Positions 4,286 to 15,870 of a stretch of DNA of 64,000 nt are shown here, piece after piece; the first letter of the stretch is position 1, and each line of letters opens with the position of its first letter. The translations under genes and the position numbers were made by a program. The notes beneath the pieces are model-generated. The model searched no databases. It worked only from the letters and a program-made list of their open reading frames with translations, and had not been told where the DNA came from. This DNA comes from Desulfobacca sp. (GTDB lineage Bacteria > Desulfobacterota > Desulfobaccia > Desulfobaccales > Desulfobaccaceae). The stretch spans positions 1-64,000 of the forward strand of contig DYEV01000009.1 of the NCBI GenBank assembly GCA_020725545.1, in the 5' to 3' direction.

Positions 4286-6856
4286 TTACGGCTTTTCTTC
4301 CTCTTCTTGTTTCACATACTCCTTATACCATTCGGAGTGATGCTTTTTGGCCCAGCTGCGGCTGACCTTGCCGTGCACCAGGACCTGCCAGGTGCCAGGG
4401 TTGGCGATAGTGCCCAGGTAGGCATGGGCAATGATCGAGGCTACGAAGACCACCGCAAAGAAGCCGTGAATGGTGGACATGACACAGCTCAGGGTCAGGG
4501 GCAGGCTGCTCTTGAAGATCAAGAAAATGCCGGTAACGCCGGTGATGAGCGTCAGGATGCCGGTCAGCCAGAAGAAGATCTTCTGCCCGGCGTTCAGGCG
4601 CCCGGCCGGCACTTCCACTTCTTGGCCGCCGATATAGCCGCCCTTTTTGGCCAGCCATTCCTTATCGTATGGCGCAAATTTGGCATACTTGCCCCAGAGG
4701 GCCACGCTGGCGATGGAGGCGGCGATGAAGATGAGGCCCGCCACCCAGTGGACCACTACCGCGGTCTGGGGTGTCCCGAAGGACATCCGCAACAGGGTAA
4801 TATTGTTAAAGAAGAAGATGTAGCCGGTGAAGGCCAGGACCAGGAAGCTCACCATCCGGAAGAGGTGGGTCCAGCGCTCGGAAAGCGGGAACCAGACGAT
4901 CTCCGGCGGTGATTTGTAATAATCCGCCACCTTGGGCCCCTGGCCGGTGTAGTGCAGCACTAATCCAAAGACCACCAGCAGCATCAAGATGTTGGCATAG
5001 GGTGACAGATAGAGCTGATGGAACTGATTGAGGTAAAAGGCCCAGGGCTGGCAGCCGAAGAGGCGGCCCGAACTGATGGTCAGCGGCTTGCCATCCGGCG
5101 GCCCGAACATATCCGTGACGATCTGGCCCTTGAACATGTGGGCCTCAGTGGAGTGACAGTCGCCGCAGCCATTGGCCCCCAGGGCTAAGGCAGCCGGCGC
5201 CACGTTGTGGTTAATGTTAAACCCTTCCACATGGCCGGCGTGGGTATGATCATCTTCCACCACCACCTCGCCCTTGTCATTGAGATGATAGTGCTTGCCC
5301 CCCTTGTGGTAATACGGCTTGATTTGCTGAAAGCGCTTGTTGCCTTGCAGGGTTTCGGTGAGGGCGGTGAGCATCAGCTTGATCTGCTCATTAGTGTGCA
5401 GCTCCGGTTTCATGGGGTTCTTGGGCTGCAGTTGGTCCTTGATCTTCTCATAGGCCTTCTTATTTTCCCGGCCAAAGAGGGGATAGTAAATGCCGTCCTT
5501 ATCCAGGTTGGTAAAGAAAACCCCCAAGAGGGCGTTCACCGGCGCCAACTGCCCCCGTTTGATCCGTTGGTACCGGGGGTGCCAGTCGAAGTAGTCACCG
5601 ATCTGCTTAGGAGAATTTTTCAGATCCTTGAGATTAAAAACGGGGTAATTGACCATGGCGCCGGTGGTGACGTCAAACCCCTCGCCGCCGGCGATGTGCA
5701 GGGTGGGGATATGACAGGTTTCGCAGGCCAGTTTCTCCAGGTGGTTGGGCCGGACGCCAAGATGGGTCGGCCGGGGCGCGCCCATATAACCCTGGGAATG
5801 GCAATCCCGGCAGGTCATGATGGTATTGTCCAGATCATCCCGGACACTGGAAACGTTTTCATCCCCTTTGGCGAATTGGTGTTGGAGTTTCGTAACCTTG
5901 AGGGCGGGATTATCAATGGCTGGATGGCAGTCGTTACAGGACATCCCCCGGGCATTGTGAACATCGTGGTTGCGGCGATCATTCCAGGAAAAGCCCCGCT
6001 TCTTGGCGTCAGAAATGCCGTGGCAGAAATTGCAGTTTTCCGAAGGCGGGGGATAGGCCAGATCCAGGGCGATCTTGCCATCTTCATTAAAAAGGCGTTT
6101 ATTATACTGGACCGTGGGCTGCTGGTCCTCCCGCACAAAGCCACTGACCTGGCCAATGCCCGAGGCTGCGGTGGCGGCCCACTTAAAGTTATACATTTTT
6201 AATTGTTTATTACGTTCTTTGAAGTTGTAGCCGGGCAGATGGCAGAGGAGACAGTCGGCCTCCACCACGCCCGATTTGTCCCATTTGCTCTTGTAGTAAT
6301 CGCCGTCCAAGGATTGGGCCAAGGTCGGTTCGGCCTTCAGGCGCTGGTCATAGCGCTTGCCGTCCCGATCAAACTCCAGACCACCACCCCCCGGGTGGCA
6401 GCCGCCGCAAAACGGTACGCCGATCTGTTTGGGATCGGTGGGACCACCGCCCACCCATTCGAAAATGGTGATGTCAATCTCGTCGGGGCTGGTATTCTTT
6501 TTTTTCGCCAACTGGCGAAAGGAGGGCGGTCAGAACTTCCCCAGCATGCCGTCGGAGAGCACCCAGGGCTTGTCCATTTTTTTGCCGAAATCATCGCTGA
6601 TGCGGTCCCAGCCCTGTTGAAAATGGTAACCTTTGGTGATCTCGTCGTAATTATGGCAGGCGCCGCAGGTCTGCCGTGGACTGTAGGGCTGATCAGCGTT
6701 TTCGCCGGTGAGGGGGTTGATAATCTTGCCATCCTCAGTCTTCAGATGGAAAGGAATACAGGCCCGTTCCCGGGCCATGGCCACCGAGACGAACAGAAGC
6801 AGCCCGAGCCCGGCCAGGAGCAGGGCAGCGAGGCGTGGCACGTTTTGCCTCTCCAT
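4286..6856 (-). CDS. Octaheme cytochrome c / cytochrome b fusion with in-frame TGA
   Basis: Read through one TGA (6530-6532), this is a single 856-residue protein: signal peptide (about 1-28), periplasmic multiheme domain, and a five-helix membrane domain resembling the FdnI/HydC cytochrome b family. CxxCH motifs number eight: CGACH (64-68) before the TGA, then CGGCH (150), CLLCH (202), CNFCH (275), CNDCH (307), CRDCH (349), CETCH (378) and CGDCH near 570. Membrane helices follow from about residue 610. This layout matches CbcL-type quinone:periplasm electron carriers of Geobacter. The start at 6856 has GGAGGTG seven bases upstream. The part after the TGA has no signal peptide, and its first possible start, TTG at 6511, has no ribosome site, so two separate genes are unlikely. 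The TGA would be residue 109. Selenocysteine, a nonsense mutation and a sequencing error are all possible. Confidence 0.85.
6503..6520 (-). promoter_or_regulatory. SECIS-like hairpin 3' of the in-frame TGA
   Basis: In the mRNA, nine bases after the UGA, there is a perfect 7-bp stem UUUCGCC/GGCGAAA with the 4-base loop AGUU. The UGA-to-loop distance is 16 bases and a G lies in the first two loop bases. Both fit the loose published rules for bacterial SECIS elements. Bacterial SECIS sequences are poorly conserved, so this supports but does not prove recoding. The hairpin is followed by A residues, not U, so it is not an intrinsic terminator. Confidence 0.5.
6530..6532 (-). other. In-frame TGA, candidate selenocysteine codon
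   Basis: The upstream frame ends with Gly-Lys-Phe at this TGA. The same frame continues without another stop for 748 codons, starting Pro-Pro-Ser-Phe-Arg-Gln-Leu. The codons on both sides read as one continuous cytochrome domain. Position in the joined product is 109. Confidence 0.6.
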
Positions 6857-7058
6857 GGTAATGCACCTCCGGTTCATAAAATTTTTTTTTGATCATAATG
6901 TATCTATTGTTTAGGCATTGCGCAACATTTTTTAATTTTTCGGTTTCGGGGTTTCGGGGTGCAAATATTACGGTTTTCGGTTGCTGCTTTCTGGAAAAGG
7001 TCTGCTTTGCGGGGGGGCGGGCCGCCGCCCGGGCTGTGGCGGGTTGGGCAGCTCGCAG

Positions 7059-7080
7059 GGGCGGACCCGCGTGTCCGCCC
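7059..7080 (-). terminator. GC-rich hairpin downstream of ldcA-like gene
   Basis: Stem GGGCGGAC (7059-7066) and GTCCGCCC (7073-7080) with a 6-base loop, beginning 11 bases after the stop of the leftward gene. There is no clear U-run. A similar GGGGGGC...GTCCGCCCCCC hairpin occurs at 60781-60805, so this may be a dispersed palindromic repeat rather than, or as well as, a terminator. Confidence 0.4.
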
Positions 7081-7090
7081 GCCCCCGGGC

Positions 7091-8017
7091 TCAGAGGCTG
7101 CCCGGCATCAGCCACTGCAGGGTCCGTTGCTGGGAATCAACCCGGACCAGAGTTCCCAGGGGGATGGTGTAATTATCCGGCTGGTGGCCCATGGGCAGCC
7201 CGGCCAGGACCGGCAGGCCCAAGTCTTCTCCCAGGGAGGCAAAGAGTTCCCAGACCTTGGGCAAGGGGCCGCAGCCGGTGAAGCCGCCCAAGACGATGGC
7301 GTGTACGCCCTGGAGTCGGCCGGAGAGGCGCAGTTGTTGCAAAAGGCGGTCAATCCGGTAGAGCGGCTCGTTGTAATCCTCCAGGAGCAGGACGTGGCCG
7401 GATAGGGTGGGGGCAAAGGGGGTGCCCAAGAGGGAGCAGAGGATGGCCAGGTTGCCGCCCACCAGGGGGCCTTGGGCCGTCCCCGGGGCCAGAACCTGGA
7501 GGTCTGGGAAGCACAGCCGCTCTAGAGAGGGTTCCATCAGCAGGCAGCGGCAGTGTTCCTGGGCCTCCGGCCAGATTTCCGCCAGATGGGCCACCGTGGG
7601 ACCATGGCAGGTGACCACCCCGGCCCGTTGGCTGAAAAGGCAGAGCAGGGTAGTGATATCGCTGAAACCCAGGAAATATTTGGGGTGCTGCGCCAGGAGA
7701 GTCAGGTCCAGATGCTGCAGAAGGCGAATGGTGCCGTAGCCGCCTCGGGCACAGATGATGCCTTTGATCTCGGGATCAGTGATGGCCTGGGCCAGCCGTT
7801 GGGCCGCGGCTTTATCAGCCGCAGTCGTATAGGGACGGGGGGCAAAAATTTCCGCTCCATGGGTCAGACGAAGGCCCCAGGTCGCCAGGACGGCAATGCC
7901 GGCGGCAAAGGCTTCCCGAGAGATGGGGCTGGCCGGGGCGACGATGGCCAGCAGGTCTCCTGGTTGGAGTGGCATCGGCCAGATGGGGTTGGTTTTACGA
8001 GGAGCAGAAGGAGTCAT
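7091..8017 (-). CDS. ldcA: LD-carboxypeptidase (peptidase S66, LdcA/MccF family)
   Basis: S66 enzymes are serine peptidases that trim the terminal D-alanine from murein tetrapeptides during cytoplasmic recycling; relatives cleave microcin C7. Family features seen are the N-terminal LQPGDLLAIVAPASPIS, the oxyanion-side motif ARGGYGTIRLL, the nucleophile region LGFSDITTLL, GGNLAIL, LLLEDYNEPLYRIDR and the late GxPMGH segment carrying the catalytic His. From the ATG at 8017 the product has 308 residues, the usual length; the open frame extends to 8113 but the extra N-terminus is not family-like. No signal peptide is seen, in keeping with a cytoplasmic role. It is divergent from the glycosyltransferase at 8138, so a short shared promoter region is likely. 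Confidence 0.88.
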   Translation of the reverse strand: MTPSAPRKTNPIWPMPLQPGDLLAIVAPASPISREAFAAGIAVLATWGLRLTHGAEIFAPRPYTTAADKAAAQRLAQAITDPEIKGIICARGGYGTIRLLQHLDLTLLAQHPKYFLGFSDITTLLCLFSQRAGVVTCHGPTVAHLAEIWPEAQEHCRCLLMEPSLERLCFPDLQVLAPGTAQGPLVGGNLAILCSLLGTPFAPTLSGHVLLLEDYNEPLYRIDRLLQQLRLSGRLQGVHAIVLGGFTGCGPLPKVWELFASLGEDLGLPVLAGLPMGHQPDNYTIPLGTLVRVDSQQRTLQWLMPGSL

Positions 8018-8137
8018 ACATTTTTTCCATTCAGGGTGAAGGATAGGCACATTCGTGTGGAGAAAAAACGACTGTCCTTGTGCACGGCGCGGTCTTGCCG
8101 TATTATAGTCCAAACAACCATGGAGTGAAGGAAGAAA

Positions 8138-9790
8138 TTGCGCCGGAGGGCTACTATAAAAAGGTTTTTTAACTCATTGGGACTGTCGCGGGAGGCCGCT
8201 GGGCACCCGTCCTGGCCCTGGCAATCGTGGCTTTTCCCGGCTTTGGTGGTATTTTTCCTCTGTCTAGGCATTTTCTACCGGATCTACGGCATCGGCGCCC
8301 GCAGTCTGTGGACCGATGAGGCCTGGGTAGCCTTAGCGGCGATCCAGCCAGCGGCGGCGGCGGCTCTGGCTGGGGGCAAGTCCACGCCGCCATTCTATCT
8401 CCTCACGGTCTGGGGGCTGGTACAGGTACTGGGGGCCAGCGAGACGGTTTTGCGTATCACGTCAGTGCTGCTGGGGATCGGCTCTTTGGTGCTGTTTTGG
8501 CCTTTGGCCCGGTGGCTGCTGCCCCCCTGGCAGGCCCTGGCTGCCCTGGCCCTGGTGAGCGTTTCCCACCGGTTGGTTTACTTTAGTAAAGAGTTAAAAC
8601 AATACAGCGCCGATGTATTTTTTGCAGTGCTGACTTTTCTTCTGGTGGAAAGGCAACTCCGACGGGGCGGGCAGGGAGGGTGGGGCCTGTTGACGGCCGT
8701 GCTGGCCCTGGGTTTGGGGTATTCCTTCCCACTGGTGTTTATCCTGCCGGTGGCGGCAGGGGTGTTGTGGTGGCAGTTACCTGCGGCTAGGCGAGCCGTG
8801 GTCCTGTCGTTTGGCACCCTGGCTCTGGTTTTCCTGGTCTATTATCTTACCCTGTTTCGGGGGCAGGTGGATCGGGAACTCCTGATCTACTGGCAGGCCG
8901 ATTTTCCGGATCTCTCGGCGGTGGGGCCGTTTTTTACCTGGCTGGGTGCGGCTTGGTGGCGGTTCGGCCGTTATTTTTTTGCCGATTGGCGGGTTTTGCC
9001 AGGGGCGGCGTTGCTGCTGGTCGGCCTGGTCGCTTGTGCGCGGCACGGTCAGGCGCGGGTGGTCTGGTATTTCTTCGGTCCCCTGCTGCTGGCCCTGGCT
9101 GCGGCTTTTGCCCAGCGCTATCCCTTTATGGGACGTGCCGGCGGGGTGCGGCTGATGATGTTTGCTGCGCCCATGCTGTATCTGGTGACCGGGGCCGGTC
9201 TTGGCGCCGTGGGAGGCTGGCTGTGGCAGAGGACTAAAAGGTGGCAGGCAGATCCCGCGGCGGCAAGCCTAGATGAAAATGGAGGGGGAAAAAAATTAGG
9301 GTGGCGTCTGGGGCCAGTCGTGCTGCTGGGCCTTTACCTGCTGGCGGTCATCCTGTGGCTGCGACCGGTCTTCCTCTGGCAGGAGAATCTCTGGCCCCAG
9401 ATGAATCGGGAGGAAATTGCCCCCCTGGTCCGTTACCTGGAGGCCCACCGCCGTCCCGGCGATGCCATCTATTTATACTATTTTGCCAGCGATCCCTTCA
9501 TGTTTTATTACCAAGGGCCATTCACCGATATTATCTGGGGCCAATCCTGCCACGACTGCGGCCTGCCCCTGCCCGCGGCGCGTCTGGCCCAGATCCAACG
9601 TCTCTGGCTGCTTTTTTCCCATTTTGAGACCGAAGCCGACGTGGACCGGTTCATCATGAACCTGTTGGGCGAGGGTTGGACCAAAGAATTTTCGCTGGCC
9701 CAGCCGGGGGCCCTGCTGCGGCGCTATCGGCCGCCCTGGGCCAGACCTGAAGCCGAGACCGGTGACCTCAGGCCGTCAGTGCCTGAGTAA
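8138..9790 (+). CDS. GT39/ArnT-like polytopic glycosyltransferase
   Basis: This 550-residue protein has about ten hydrophobic helices and the GT39-like N-terminal pattern of an acidic motif in the first periplasmic loop (RSLWTDEAWVAL). A lipid-linked sugar would be transferred on the periplasmic side. After the last helix (about 385-405) a soluble tail begins with a conserved-looking segment around YLEAHRRPGDAIYLYYF. The start is TTG at 8138; the alternative is a later codon. Related proteins decorate lipid A, proteins or glycolipids, and the acceptor cannot be told from sequence. The 3' end overlaps the convergent receiver gene by 23 bases. Confidence is high for a membrane glycosyltransferase and low for substrate. 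Confidence 0.75.
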   Translation: MRRRATIKRFFNSLGLSREAAGHPSWPWQSWLFPALVVFFLCLGIFYRIYGIGARSLWTDEAWVALAAIQPAAAAALAGGKSTPPFYLLTVWGLVQVLGASETVLRITSVLLGIGSLVLFWPLARWLLPPWQALAALALVSVSHRLVYFSKELKQYSADVFFAVLTFLLVERQLRRGGQGGWGLLTAVLALGLGYSFPLVFILPVAAGVLWWQLPAARRAVVLSFGTLALVFLVYYLTLFRGQVDRELLIYWQADFPDLSAVGPFFTWLGAAWWRFGRYFFADWRVLPGAALLLVGLVACARHGQARVVWYFFGPLLLALAAAFAQRYPFMGRAGGVRLMMFAAPMLYLVTGAGLGAVGGWLWQRTKRWQADPAAASLDENGGGKKLGWRLGPVVLLGLYLLAVILWLRPVFLWQENLWPQMNREEIAPLVRYLEAHRRPGDAIYLYYFASDPFMFYYQGPFTDIIWGQSCHDCGLPLPAARLAQIQRLWLLFSHFETEADVDRFIMNLLGEGWTKEFSLAQPGALLRRYRPPWARPEAETGDLRPSVPE

Positions 9791-10725: not shown

Positions 10726-11931
10726 ATGAAAGACCAGGAGTTTGAGCACCTTCCCAGTCATTTCGGCATGGTTTCCCGGCGGGATTTTTTGAAATTCTGC
10801 ACGATAGCCGCGGCTACCATGGGGCTGCCCATGAGTATGGGCCTCCGCATGGCAGAAGCGGTGGCCGCGGCGAAGCGGCCGCCGGTCATCTGGCTTTCCG
10901 GCCAGGAATGCACCGGTTGCACCGAAACGCTGCTCCGTTCCACCCATCCCACTGTCGAACACCTCATCTTAAATCTCATCTCGGTTGATTATCACGAAAC
11001 CCTGAGCGTCCCTTCTGGTCATTTAGCGGAAGAAGCCAAGAAGGCTTCCATCAAGGAAAACAAGGGTAAATTCATCCTGGTGACGGAGGGAGCCATTCCC
11101 ACCAAAGACGGTGGCATTTACTGTCTGGTGGGGGGGCGGCCGGTATTGGAGATTGTCCGGGAGACCGCGCCCTATGCCGCAGCCATAGTCGCCATCGGCT
11201 CCTGCGCCGCGTGGGGCGGGATTCCTGCGGCCGCACCCAATCCCACTGGCGCTGTCTCCACCCAAGAGGTTCTGGGTGATAAGTTCAAAGTGATCAATAT
11301 TCCCGGCTGTCCTCCCAATCCGTATAATTTCCTCTCCACCGTCCTCTACCTCGTCACGTTCAAAAAGCTCCCCGAACTGGACGAGAAAAACCGGCCCCTG
11401 TTTGCTTATCGCCGCCTCATCCACGAGGGTTGTGAGCGCCGGCCGCATTTTGATGCCGGCCGGTTTGCCCTGGAGTTTGATGACGAAGGGCACCGCCGGG
11501 GCTGGTGTCTCTATAAGTTGGGCTGCAAAGGACCGGTAACCTATAACAATTGTCCGGCGGTCTTGTTCGGGGATGTAGGGGCCCGGAGTTGGCCGGTGGG
11601 TACCGGTTGCCCCTGTTTCGGCTGTTCCGAAAAAGAGGTGGCATTTACGGAGCCCATACCGGCCATGGCCAGCCTGAAGTTTGTGGAACCTTCGCCGGCC
11701 TTGGTGGGCGAAGGGGCGGAATCTCGGCCTGGCGGTCGGGTGCTGCGGCTGACGCCGCCCAAGACCTTTGCGCCCATTGAGGCGCCGCGGGGGGCGGGAC
11801 CGTCAGCGGCCACTGTGGGGGTCCTGGCGGGTCTGGCCGGCGCGGCGTTGGGAGCCGGTGCCGTGGCCGCCTCCCGGCTGGGCAAAGGCAAAGAAACCGA
11901 GACTGCTGCAGAAACCAAAAAAGAGGATTAG
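10726..11931 (+). CDS. [NiFe] hydrogenase small subunit (HybO/HyaA type)
   Basis: This iron-sulfur subunit carries electrons from the NiFe site. It has a Tat signal (SRRDFLKF at residues 17-24, then a hydrophobic run ending AEAVAAA), so the folded heterodimer is exported to the periplasm. Cluster ligands are visible: ECTGC, GSCAAWGG and IPGCPPNP for the proximal cluster, and the HEGCERR, GWCLYKLGC, NNCP and GTGCPCFGC motifs for the medial and distal clusters. A C-terminal hydrophobic helix (about residues 363-383) anchors it in the membrane. A good ribosome site (GGGAGGAG) precedes the ATG. It is the first gene of a four-gene operon in the order small subunit, HybA, HybB, large subunit, as in E. 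coli hydrogenase 2. The 401-residue length is normal. Confidence 0.95.
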   Translation: MKDQEFEHLPSHFGMVSRRDFLKFCTIAAATMGLPMSMGLRMAEAVAAAKRPPVIWLSGQECTGCTETLLRSTHPTVEHLILNLISVDYHETLSVPSGHLAEEAKKASIKENKGKFILVTEGAIPTKDGGIYCLVGGRPVLEIVRETAPYAAAIVAIGSCAAWGGIPAAAPNPTGAVSTQEVLGDKFKVINIPGCPPNPYNFLSTVLYLVTFKKLPELDEKNRPLFAYRRLIHEGCERRPHFDAGRFALEFDDEGHRRGWCLYKLGCKGPVTYNNCPAVLFGDVGARSWPVGTGCPCFGCSEKEVAFTEPIPAMASLKFVEPSPALVGEGAESRPGGRVLRLTPPKTFAPIEAPRGAGPSAATVGVLAGLAGAALGAGAVAASRLGKGKETETAAETKKED

Positions 11932-11933
11932 CC

Positions 11934-12899
11934 ATGGGACTGAGTCGGAGAAATTTCCTGAAAGCCGCGGCCGGGGGTGGGCTGTTGGCGGCCTCGCAGC
12001 TCAGTCCGGTGCCGGTCTGGGCCCGGGAACCAAAAACCCGGCTGCCCGAGGCCCTGGGCATCCTCTATGATGCCACCCTCTGCATCGGCTGCAAGGCCTG
12101 CATGACCGCCTGTAAAGAGTTTAACAGTCTGCCGCCTGATCCAAGCTCGCCGGAAGGCCTTTGGGATGACCCCCTGGATCTGTCGGCCAAGACGTATAAC
12201 ATTGTCAAGCTTTATCGGAGTGGCACCGGTCAGACCAAAGACCGGGAAGAGGACGGCTACTCCTTTATCCGCCGCTTTTGCATGCACTGCGTGGATCCGG
12301 CCTGCACCTCGGCCTGTCCGGTGAATGCCTTGAGCAAGGATCCAGTGACCGGCATTGTCAGATACAATAAAGATTTGTGTATCGGCTGCCGGTATTGCCA
12401 GATCGCCTGTCCGTTTAATGTGCCCAAATTTGAGTGGGATACGCCTTTCCCCCAGATAAAGAAATGTCAATTGTGTGACCACCGCCTCGTCCGGGGTAGT
12501 TATCCGGCCTGTTGTGAATTCTGTCCCAACGGCGCCTCGGTCTTCGGGGATGTCCAGTCGCTGCGGAAAGAGGCCAAACGCCGGCTGGGTCTGCCGGCCG
12601 GTTCCCAGGCCACCTTTCCGGTGCATCGCATCGACACCGGCGAATACCGCTACGCCACCGTAGGTCATTACTTCCCCCGGGTTTACGGCGAAGTGGACGG
12701 CGGCGGCACGCAGGTCCTCATCATGGCCGGGGTCCCCTTCAACAGATTGGGGCTGCCGGACCTGCCCCCGGAATCCACCGCCAGCCATTCGGAGACCCTC
12801 ATGCATACCCTCTATAAAGGCATGATTGGGCCCTATGTCCTGCTGGCTGGCCTCTTTTATCTGGTCTACAAGAATACCTCCAAGAAGGATCTACCCTAA
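11934..12899 (+). CDS. hybA: HybA-like periplasmic 4x[4Fe-4S] ferredoxin
   Basis: The protein has a Tat signal (LSRRNFLKAAAGGG) and four cysteine groups typical of the DmsB/HybA ferredoxin family: LCIGCKACMTACKEF, FCMHCVDPACTSACPV, LCIGCRYCQIACPF and KCQLCDHRL with ACCEFCPNG. A C-terminal membrane helix (about 298-315, VLLAGLFYLVYK) anchors it. It should carry electrons from the small subunit to HybB. Its ATG lies two bases after the stop of the small subunit, indicating translational coupling. At 321 residues it matches HybA. Confidence 0.95.
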   Translation: MGLSRRNFLKAAAGGGLLAASQLSPVPVWAREPKTRLPEALGILYDATLCIGCKACMTACKEFNSLPPDPSSPEGLWDDPLDLSAKTYNIVKLYRSGTGQTKDREEDGYSFIRRFCMHCVDPACTSACPVNALSKDPVTGIVRYNKDLCIGCRYCQIACPFNVPKFEWDTPFPQIKKCQLCDHRLVRGSYPACCEFCPNGASVFGDVQSLRKEAKRRLGLPAGSQATFPVHRIDTGEYRYATVGHYFPRVYGEVDGGGTQVLIMAGVPFNRLGLPDLPPESTASHSETLMHTLYKGMIGPYVLLAGLFYLVYKNTSKKDLP

Positions 12900-12914
12900 C
12901 AAAAGGAGCCAGTG

Positions 12915-14063
12915 ATGCTGAATGAGAGTCAACCCTTGGGGGGCAAGATCCTCACCAAACCGTTTCTGGTGTTGGCCGCCGTGGCTCTGGTGGGGGGTGT
13001 CCTGATCGTTTATCGGTATGTCTTCGGACTGGGGGCGGTGACCAACCTGAGTGACGGCTACCCATGGGGCATCTGGATCACTTATGACGTCCTGGTGGGC
13101 ACGGCCCTGGGCTGCGGCGGTTATGCCATGGCCCTGTTGATCTATGCCTTTAATAAATGGGAGTATCACCCGTTAGTGCGGTCAGCCATCTTAACCAGCG
13201 TCTTCGGTTATACCCTGGCCGGCGTGGCTGTCTTCCTGGATATCGGCCGCTATTGGAACGGCTATAACCTCTTCCTGCCCTGGCGGGTCAATTTCAATTC
13301 GGTGCTGGTGGAAGTGGCCTTGTGTATCGCCGCCTATGTGGTGGTCTTATGGCTGGAATTGGCTCCGGCCCTCCTGGAGGGGCGACCTGATCCCAAGGCG
13401 CAGCGGACCCGGCAGCACCTGAAAAGGTGGCTGCCCATTATCGTCTCTCTGGGAATCCTGCTCCCTACCATGCACCAATCCTCTCTGGGAGCACTGATGA
13501 TCATTGCCGGGCCGAAGCTGTCGCCCCTCTGGCAGACGCCCCTCTTACCCATGCTCTTTTTGATTACGGCCATCGCCATGGGCTATGCGGTGACGGTGTT
13601 TGAATCGCTGCTGTCATCTCTGGCCTTCAATCGGCCCTACGAAACACCGTTGTTGGCCAGGATCAGCACCATCATGGTGGGCTTCGTGGGCATCTACCTG
13701 GTCATCCGCTTCGCCGACCTGATCTGGCGGGGGCAGACCGGTCTCATCTTTACCGACAGCACCGCCAGCCTCATGTTCATCATTGAGAACCTGCTGTTCT
13801 TACAGGCGGTGATCATCTTGGCGAGGCCAGCCAATCGCAGCGACAACCGTTGGCTGTTTATCTCGGCCATCCTGCTGCTCCTGGGCGGCGCGGTGTATCG
13901 CTTTAACGCCTTCCTGGTGGGTTATACTCCCGCCGTCGGCTGGCGTTATTTCCCGGCTTTGCCGGAGATACTCATTACCTTGGGCATCGTCGCCCTGGAA
14001 TTGTTGGGTTATCTCTATTTTGTAAAGCGGTATCCCATTTTGCCTAAGGCGGAACATGCCTAA
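12915..14063 (+). CDS. hybB: HybB-like (NrfD family) integral membrane subunit
   Basis: About ten hydrophobic helices fill the 383-residue product, and family segments such as DGYPWGIWITYDVLVGTALG are present. HybB passes electrons to, or takes them from, menaquinone in the cytoplasmic membrane and carries no heme. The ATG at 12915 has AGGAG six bases upstream; a GTG immediately before it (12912) is too close. It begins 15 bases after hybA and is part of the same transcript. Confidence 0.94.
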   Translation: MLNESQPLGGKILTKPFLVLAAVALVGGVLIVYRYVFGLGAVTNLSDGYPWGIWITYDVLVGTALGCGGYAMALLIYAFNKWEYHPLVRSAILTSVFGYTLAGVAVFLDIGRYWNGYNLFLPWRVNFNSVLVEVALCIAAYVVVLWLELAPALLEGRPDPKAQRTRQHLKRWLPIIVSLGILLPTMHQSSLGALMIIAGPKLSPLWQTPLLPMLFLITAIAMGYAVTVFESLLSSLAFNRPYETPLLARISTIMVGFVGIYLVIRFADLIWRGQTGLIFTDSTASLMFIIENLLFLQAVIILARPANRSDNRWLFISAILLLLGGAVYRFNAFLVGYTPAVGWRYFPALPEILITLGIVALELLGYLYFVKRYPILPKAEHA

Positions 14064-14169
14064 ACAACGGTATCCCTTAGGCTCGGTCGAAACCGGCGCC
14101 TTTTTGAGAGATTACCGGTTCTCCTGAACGAGACCCGGTCCCCCCGAACTGTGACGAGGAGACAGAGAC

Positions 14170-15870
14170 ATGGGTAAACGAATTACCATCGATCCCATCA
14201 CCCGTATTGAAGGACACCTGCGCATTGATTGTGAAGTGGACGGCGGCAAGGTGGTGAACGCCTGGTCATCGGGCCAGATGTGGCGGGGTATTGAAATCAT
14301 CCTGCAGGGACGGGACCCCCGAGATGCCCCCACCTTTACCCAGCGGTTCTGCGGCGTGTGTACCACGGTGCATGCCTTGGCCTCCTGCCGGGCCGTGGAA
14401 AACGCCCTGCATTTGGAGATCCCCCTCAACGCCCAGTATATCCGCAACCTGATCATTGCGGCCCATGCCGTGCATGATCACATTGTGCATTTTTATATCC
14501 TCTCGGCGCTGGATTGGGTGGATATTACCTCGGCCCTGAAGGCCGACGTAAAAAAGGCCGCGTCCTTGGGGGACTCCCTGTCCAATTGGCCCCGGAATAA
14601 TTACCGGGAACTGCAAGCGGTCCAGGAAAAGCTGGCGGCCTTTGTCAACTCTGGCCAACTGGGGCCCTTTGCCAACGGCTATTGGGGCCATCCGGCCATG
14701 AAGCTGCCGCCGGAGGTGAACCTGTTGGCCGCGGCCCACTATCTTCAGGCCTTGGAATATCAGCGCAAGGCCAACATGATCGTCTCCATCCTGGGGAGTA
14801 AAACGCCCCACGTGGCCAACCTGGTGGTGGGCGGCGTCTCCAGCCCCATCAACCTGGACAGTTCTTCGGCCCTGAACATGGAGCGGCTCTACTACATCAA
14901 GACGCTTATTGATGAAGTGGGTGATTTTGTCAAGAACGTCTATCTGGTGGATGTTTGCGCGGTGGGCGCCCTTTACGCGGATTGGACCCAATACGGCGCC
15001 GGGGTGACCAACTACCTGTCGGTTCCCGATATGCCCATGGACACCAAAGGCCAGGCCTTCAACATGCCGGGTGGCTATATTCAGAATGCTGACCTCGAAA
15101 CTTTTCAGCCCATCACCGATTTCAACTCCGAGTATTTTCGGTTCGGAGTCAAAGAGAGCATCAAACACTCCTGGTATGAGGGCGATTGGGCCCGTCATCC
15201 CTTCGATGAGACGACCCAACCAAAATACACCGGCTTTCAGGAAAACGGCAAGTATTCCTGGGTCAAGTCCCCCACGTTCTATGATAAACCGGCGCAGGTG
15301 GGGCCGCTAGCCAATGTGCTGTGTATGTATGCCGCCGGCCACGCCCCCACTAAAAAGTATGTGGAGGCGGCGCTGGCGACGGTAAGCAGTATTGCCGGCG
15401 CCAAGGTGGGTCCCGAGGCCCTACATTCCACCATCGGTCGGCACGCGGCCCGGGCCATCCGTTGTGCCGTGCTCTATGAAGAACTCAACAAACAATGGAC
15501 GGCCTTGATGGAGAATATCGCCAAGGGCGACGTGAAGACCTATAGCCGCTATTCCTTCCCGGCCGGAGAGATCCGGGGGTTTGGCTTCCACGAGGCGCCC
15601 CGGGGGACGCTCTCCCATTGGGTGGTCATCAACAGCGGCAAGATCAAAAACTACCAGGCGGTGGTGCCCTCCACCTGGAATGCTGGCCCCCGCAACCAGG
15701 CGGATGCCCTGGGGCCCTATGAGGCCTCCCTCATTGGCAACCCCATTGCCGATCCCGAGCGGCCCTTGGAGGCAGTGCGTACCATCCACTCCTTTGACCC
15801 CTGTCTGGCCTGCGCCATCCACCTGGTGGACGCCAAAGGCAAGTCCATCGTCCAGGTGCGGGCGTTATGA
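14170..15870 (+). CDS. hybC: [NiFe] hydrogenase large subunit (HybC type)
   Basis: This is the catalytic subunit that splits or makes H2. The two active-site cysteine pairs are intact: FCGVC (C61, C64) and DPCLACAIH (C545, C548). There is no UGA, so it is a NiFe and not a NiFeSe enzyme. Residues 1-20 hold the RIEGH motif. A 15-residue extension follows the final His, so a maturation protease must cleave it after Ni insertion. No such protease or hyp gene follows in this window. The large subunit has no signal peptide and is exported with the small subunit. A 106-base gap separates it from hybB. GACGAGGAGACAG before the ATG provides the ribosome site. Confidence 0.96.
   Translation: MGKRITIDPITRIEGHLRIDCEVDGGKVVNAWSSGQMWRGIEIILQGRDPRDAPTFTQRFCGVCTTVHALASCRAVENALHLEIPLNAQYIRNLIIAAHAVHDHIVHFYILSALDWVDITSALKADVKKAASLGDSLSNWPRNNYRELQAVQEKLAAFVNSGQLGPFANGYWGHPAMKLPPEVNLLAAAHYLQALEYQRKANMIVSILGSKTPHVANLVVGGVSSPINLDSSSALNMERLYYIKTLIDEVGDFVKNVYLVDVCAVGALYADWTQYGAGVTNYLSVPDMPMDTKGQAFNMPGGYIQNADLETFQPITDFNSEYFRFGVKESIKHSWYEGDWARHPFDETTQPKYTGFQENGKYSWVKSPTFYDKPAQVGPLANVLCMYAAGHAPTKKYVEAALATVSSIAGAKVGPEALHSTIGRHAARAIRCAVLYEELNKQWTALMENIAKGDVKTYSRYSFPAGEIRGFGFHEAPRGTLSHWVVINSGKIKNYQAVVPSTWNAGPRNQADALGPYEASLIGNPIADPERPLEAVRTIHSFDPCLACAIHLVDAKGKSIVQVRAL

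Follow-up and report, generated by a model that had tools for sequence, protein, structure and literature searches.

The gene at positions 4286-6856 on the minus strand of the window (the whole 64,000-nucleotide stretch of Desulfobacca sp. contig DYEV01000009.1 that was analysed) is very likely a selenoprotein gene, in which the UGA at codon 109 is read as selenocysteine (Sec). The joint claim, that this selenoprotein is also a single protein carrying a signal peptide, an octaheme cytochrome c domain and a cytochrome b domain, is held with similarly high confidence. The Sec reading is drawn from comparative genomics, and neither protein nor selenium was measured for either conclusion. A preliminary description of this region, made from sequence alone, had proposed a candidate selenocysteine codon in an octaheme cytochrome c/cytochrome b fusion. 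The observation was confirmed and the Sec reading is supported, without protein chemistry.

Structure of the interrupted gene

The frame of 856 residues is interrupted only once, by the TGA at 6530-6532 (residue 109). All features described here lie on the minus strand. The start codon, ATG 6854-6856, is preceded by a ribosome-binding site, GGAGG, read directly from the sequence at 6866-6870, and the product carries a signal peptide. One CxxCH motif, CGACH at residue 64 (6653-6667), is located upstream of the TGA. Seven are located downstream: CGGCH at residue 150 (6395-6409), CLLCH at 202 (6239-6253), CNFCH at 275 (6020-6034), CNDCH at 307 (5924-5938), CRDCH at 349 (5798-5812), CETCH at 378 (5711-5725) and CGDCH at 564 (5153-5167). 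A scan of the octaheme gene against Rfam returned nothing real.

The C-terminal approximately 200 residues match TIGR01583 (formate dehydrogenase gamma) with 119.9 bits against a cut-off of 115.85. E. coli FdnI (PDB 1kqf chain C) is matched at E 1.3e-26, with the His positions and the NAGQK motif kept. This FdnI-type di-heme cytochrome b/menaquinone domain occupies residues 653-849 (4310-4900). By comparison with the FdnGHI structure, the aligned His are taken to be heme-b ligands and NAGQK to be the quinone site. The domain is thus homologous to the gamma subunit of formate dehydrogenase-N, although, unlike that subunit, it forms part of a fusion with an octaheme domain. The fdh partner genes (FdnG/FdnH) are absent next to the gene, which stands alone among unrelated neighbours (Peptidase_S66, M23, DnaA). 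A link of the protein to quinone is likely, as inferred from the motifs.

A frame of this kind could also represent two genes, the first ending at the TGA and encoding a short periplasmic monoheme protein, the other beginning near TTG 6511. In favour of this explanation, TGA is a normal stop in this organism and the TTG lies approximately 20 nt downstream. Against it, the second part has neither a signal peptide nor a Shine-Dalgarno sequence, the TTG falls inside the hairpin described below, and homologues with Cys at residue 109 are single, uninterrupted proteins. Two genes are therefore considered very unlikely. The preliminary claims of a single TGA in an otherwise open 856-residue frame, with one heme motif before it and seven after, and of a second part without an export signal or a ribosome site at TTG 6511, both held.

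Conservation of residue 109 among homologues

Among 84,980 species genomes in a collection independent of the window, 16 loci encoding relatives were found, and residue 109 is TGA in all 16, followed by [PS]PS[FY]RQLA. The groups represented include Desulfobacterota-type sulfate reducers, Fundidesulfovibrio, Ammonifex (Bacillota) and one Eisenbacteria MAG. Desulfoluna limicola, Ammonifex thiophilus and Fundidesulfovibrio agrisoli are carriers that have been cultured. Searches in the class and phylum of the window revealed further TGA members, as well as sister subfamilies with Cys in the same column (L047-L051, L064-L065, L068-L069 and L079-L083). Among 59 aligned members, this column holds Sec in 32, Cys in 11 and another residue or a gap in 16. 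In Bacillota other than Ammonifex, 398 genomes yielded only 2 relatives, neither of which has Sec or heme 2. The presence of TGA in independent homologues and of Cys in sister subfamilies, which had been proposed as a check on the preliminary description, supports Sec.

On the tree of the family, three changes are needed to account for Sec, in clades A, B and C. Clade A contains the FdnI-fused genes, including that of the window; clade B is sister to the Cys genes; clade C consists of L131, L135, L137 and L143. In L131 and L135, the frames extend to approximately 1500 residues with approximately 15 heme motifs and appear to join an octaheme unit to another multiheme unit. In the closest relative (L027, positions 5959-8567; L045), a frameshift around residue 390 breaks the gene in two, as a result of either an assembly error or decay.

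The hairpin downstream of the UGA

The hairpin TTTCGCC-AGTT-GGCGAAA (6503-6520) begins 9 nt past the UGA and has 7 perfect pairs, the loop AGUU and a folding energy of -9.7 kcal/mol (fold z = -2.15). According to the published rules for bacterial SECIS elements (PMC13188914), the apical loop is 3-9 nt with G in the first two positions, the stem is 4-16 bp, the distance from UGA to loop is 16-37 nt and the MFE is at most -7.5. All of these are met here, with a UGA-to-loop distance of 16 nt, and the earlier claim of a SECIS-compatible hairpin at this position held exactly. A comparable hairpin follows 28 of the 1755 TGA trinucleotides in the window (1.6%), which is the chance level. The hairpin and TGA are therefore only suggestive by themselves, and it is the comparative evidence that lifts the case far above chance.

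The Gln-Leu-Ala codons within the hairpin are CAG-TTG-GCG in all 31 distinct Sec genes of clades A and B, even though TTG typically makes up only about 12% of Leu codons in those genes. At the same place in the Cys genes, Leu is encoded by CTG, CTC or CTT and never by TTG (0/8). The naive probability of this codon lock is about 1e-50 when related genes are treated as independent; as the Sec genes are related, only the direction of this value can be trusted. The loop AGUU is invariant in Sec genes, and the UGA-to-loop distance is 16 nt in clade A and 22 nt in clades B and C. The stem varies with pairing retained (UUUCGCC/GGCGAAA, GCAGCC/GGCUGC, CGAGCC/GGCUCG and GCGGCC/GGCCGC). Pairing was found in 89.9% of cells compared with 75.4% in shuffles, and covariation was 0.349 compared with 0.112; none of 500 shuffles was as high, and slid registers were worse.

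These results bear on the main alternative of the preliminary description, that the TGA is a nonsense mutation or an assembly error, in other words a sense codon that was damaged or misread in this genome only. It is true that a TGA within a long frame commonly has such an origin and that a hairpin follows it by chance at the rate given above. However, the identical TGA is present in all 16 independent homologues and in many genomes of the class and phylum, the protein and frame are conserved on both sides of it, and the hairpin is codon-locked and covarying. Neither mutation nor assembly error can account for dozens of genomes that share this TGA together with a codon-locked hairpin, and this alternative, refuted by conservation, is all but excluded.

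Selenocysteine machinery of the genome

The genome to which the window belongs is 99.96% complete. selA (618 bits), selB (388 bits), selD (367.7 bits, itself with an in-frame TGA) and a tRNA-Sec (selC) with anticodon TCA are all present, so that the search for the four genes proposed earlier was fully answered. Of the other genomes, 15 were tested for selB, and each of them scored above the cut-off.

A suppressor could in principle insert another amino acid, such as Trp or Cys, at the UGA without the Sec machinery, and the identity of the residue cannot be named from comparative data alone. Against this stand the full machinery, the fulfilled SECIS rules and the homologues with Cys rather than Trp. 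Moreover, TGA is the terminal stop of the octaheme gene in some homologues (L018, L026 and L037), and therefore it is not simply a sense codon and no reassignment has taken place. Suppression is accordingly very unlikely, and insertion of Sec remains the preferred reading.

Relationship to known multiheme cytochromes

The octaheme tetrathionate reductase (OTR) family has eight c-hemes in the same order as the window protein. Its profile matches that of the window family over hemes 3-7 (hhalign 99.3%, E 1.4e-20), and OTR genes likewise have a TGA/Cys site in frame between heme motifs 1 and 2. However, the window protein scores only 33.6 bits with the OTR model TIGR04315 against a curated cut-off of 375, and it is accordingly a relative of OTR and not a member. 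The Sec position is 41 residues before heme 2 in the window family compared with 10 in OTR, and the FdnI domain is fused in the window protein, unlike in OTR. In the N-terminal profile comparison, the heme 2 motifs align and the two Sec sites do not; homology of those residues is therefore not claimed. Within the OTR family itself, seven loci (L087, L091, L092, L097, L098, L101 and L103) have an in-frame TGA at NNF-U-I with hairpins of their own, and others have NNFCI; this agrees with the Sec-OTR annotation in GenBank cited in PMC13188914.

MmcA of Methanosarcina, a heptaheme protein (TIGR04314), has a related heme core, with 45.3 bits for the window protein against a cut-off of 250. It has no b-type domain, and heme 2 is missing from it as it is from the relatives L119 and L120. 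ExtKL (NF040886) is also a Sec-containing multiheme cytochrome, but it is a separate family with five hemes and with Sec located after the hemes. The AlphaFold model of the full-length protein was of low quality (pLDDT 50) and its heme part was unusable, while the heme domain alone reached a pLDDT of 90.3. With that model, Foldseek found no match in the PDB at E <= 0.001, and a fold shared with the OTR structure 1SP3 is at most possible.

Genomic context

Several clade A genomes have a DsrE-like gene close to the octaheme gene. Around the octaheme genes of the sister B/Cys clade, ACR3, ArsC-type phosphatase, ArsP, ArsR and ArsM genes are nearby in 16 of 23 contexts, compared with 0 of 15 in clade A. 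These counts include some overlapping or closely related genomes, and the families were confirmed for examples. Arsenic as a substrate of the window's clade was set aside, since arsenic genes were found only around the sister clade. The neighbouring genes point weakly to a sulfur-type substrate in the window's clade and, again weakly, to an arsenic-related substrate in the sister clade. No substrate has been shown, and for the window's clade the balance still tips slightly against a sulfur substrate.

Several other features of these neighbourhoods were observed. The DsrE-like gene beside the octaheme gene has an in-frame TGA of its own (CKA-U, where relatives have CKAC) in L023 (8566-8919; also L117) and L116 (4535-4894). 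In L111 (3152-13195), a Sec octaheme/FdnI gene lies within an arsenic cluster (ArsR, ArsP-like permease, ACR3) and is followed by a Sec-containing ExtKL cytochrome with TGA at DGUPGTNR. In L114 (3954-15779), a Cys octaheme gene lies in an ars cluster with ArsR, ACR3, thioredoxin, CcdA, ArsP and ArsC-type phosphatase, together with a separate cytochrome b561, a porin and a rhodanese. In the window, PhoU and a DnaA-family gene are found near the octaheme gene (391-2496), and by eye a DnaA-like gene is also near it in L021. A [NiFe] hydrogenase operon (small subunit, ferredoxin, NrfD, large subunit) is located at 10726-15870; its large subunit has DPCLAC near the end, thus Cys and not Sec.

Association of Sec109 with heme 2

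Heme motif 2 is, by order, the counterpart of OTR heme 2, which is catalytic and Lys-ligated (PMC11024163). It is kept in all 43 members with Cys or Sec, and the six relatives without it, including L119 and L120, all lack Cys/Sec (Fisher p 0.00025, relatedness ignored). In L119 and L120, which are Bacillota with the same FdnI fusion, the heme 2 cysteines are lost and the entire Sec loop is deleted. In 11 other members, heme 2 is present with Ser, Gln, Phe, Trp or a gap in the residue-109 column, which indicates that heme 2 needs no thiol or selenol and that the link is one-way. No invariant Lys was found after heme 3 in sequence sets A2 or A5, without ligand modelling. In set A5, the eight c-hemes are matched by only six invariant or almost invariant His outside the motifs. 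Two hemes would thus be left without a conserved His partner, and Sec109 as the partner of heme 2 is a plausible inference.

The occurrence of Cys/Sec only with heme 2, and its loss in relatives without heme 2, suggest that Sec109 probably works with this heme. The evidence leans modestly toward the two sharing one active site, as inferred from evolutionary coupling. The earlier suggestion that Sec109 could be an unusual heme or metal ligand is supported only as far as this coupling, and ligation itself has not been shown.

Sec109 may also belong to a true selenoprotein and yet act away from the catalytic heme, as a redox-active or metal-binding substitute for a thiol, for example in an enzyme that detoxifies arsenic or metals. 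The arsenic genes around the sister clade and the 11 relatives with heme 2 only, which show that the tie is not strict, speak for this possibility. The absence of arsenic genes from the contexts of the window's clade and the lack of Cys/Sec in relatives without heme 2 speak against it. It remains possible, with a shared Sec109/heme 2 site still preferred.

Proposed mechanism

On the preferred reading, the hairpin 9 nt downstream directs SelB and Sec-tRNA(UCA) to insert selenocysteine at UGA109; this step is shown by comparative genomics and not by protein chemistry. The product would be exported, and its eight c-hemes acquired outside the cytoplasmic membrane, in an inferred periplasmic location. 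The C-terminal FdnI-type domain, whose motifs are shown and whose function is inferred, would lie in the membrane and carry two b-hemes together with a site for menaquinone. Electrons would then be exchanged between menaquinone and a periplasmic substrate at the Sec109/heme 2 site, as inferred from the evolutionary coupling. The direction is hardly decided by the data, with quinol-driven reduction having only a slight edge over oxidation.

In TsdA thiosulfate dehydrogenase, the Cys ligand of the active-site heme is the covalent catalyst and forms cysteine S-thiosulfonate (PMC4423706). By analogy, the selenolate would most likely attack a sulfur-sulfur bond or some comparable thiophilic centre, and the resulting covalent Se intermediate would be resolved by electrons from the heme chain. 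TsdA/SoxA-type thiosulfate dehydrogenases serve only as a mechanistic model; they are different cytochromes, and no homology was tested or is claimed. In a bolder reading, Sec109 would be a selenolate ligand, axial or second-sphere, of a c-type heme, and selenium would act as a covalent catalyst on sulfur or arsenic species within a respiratory protein coupled to quinone. This joint claim is unlikely on present evidence, and any Se-Fe bond is unproven. If true, it would represent a natural selenocysteine-heme active site.

Significance

A 2026 review (PMC13188914) lists 119 prokaryotic selenoprotein families, among which the only Sec cytochromes are ExtKL and annotated OTR; Sec-OTR proper is thus already listed as GenBank-annotated. 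The FdnI-fused, quinone-linked octaheme family is absent from that inventory, and no described Sec octaheme/FdnI fusion was found in the open-access literature searched. Naive gene calling splits these octaheme genes into two broken pieces. The family makes the coupling of selenium to a multiheme chain testable, and the relatives that have Cys, that have Ser, or that lack both Sec and heme 2 serve as natural controls. It connects selenium with the respiratory chemistry of sulfate-reducing lineages and, via the sister clade, with arsenic.
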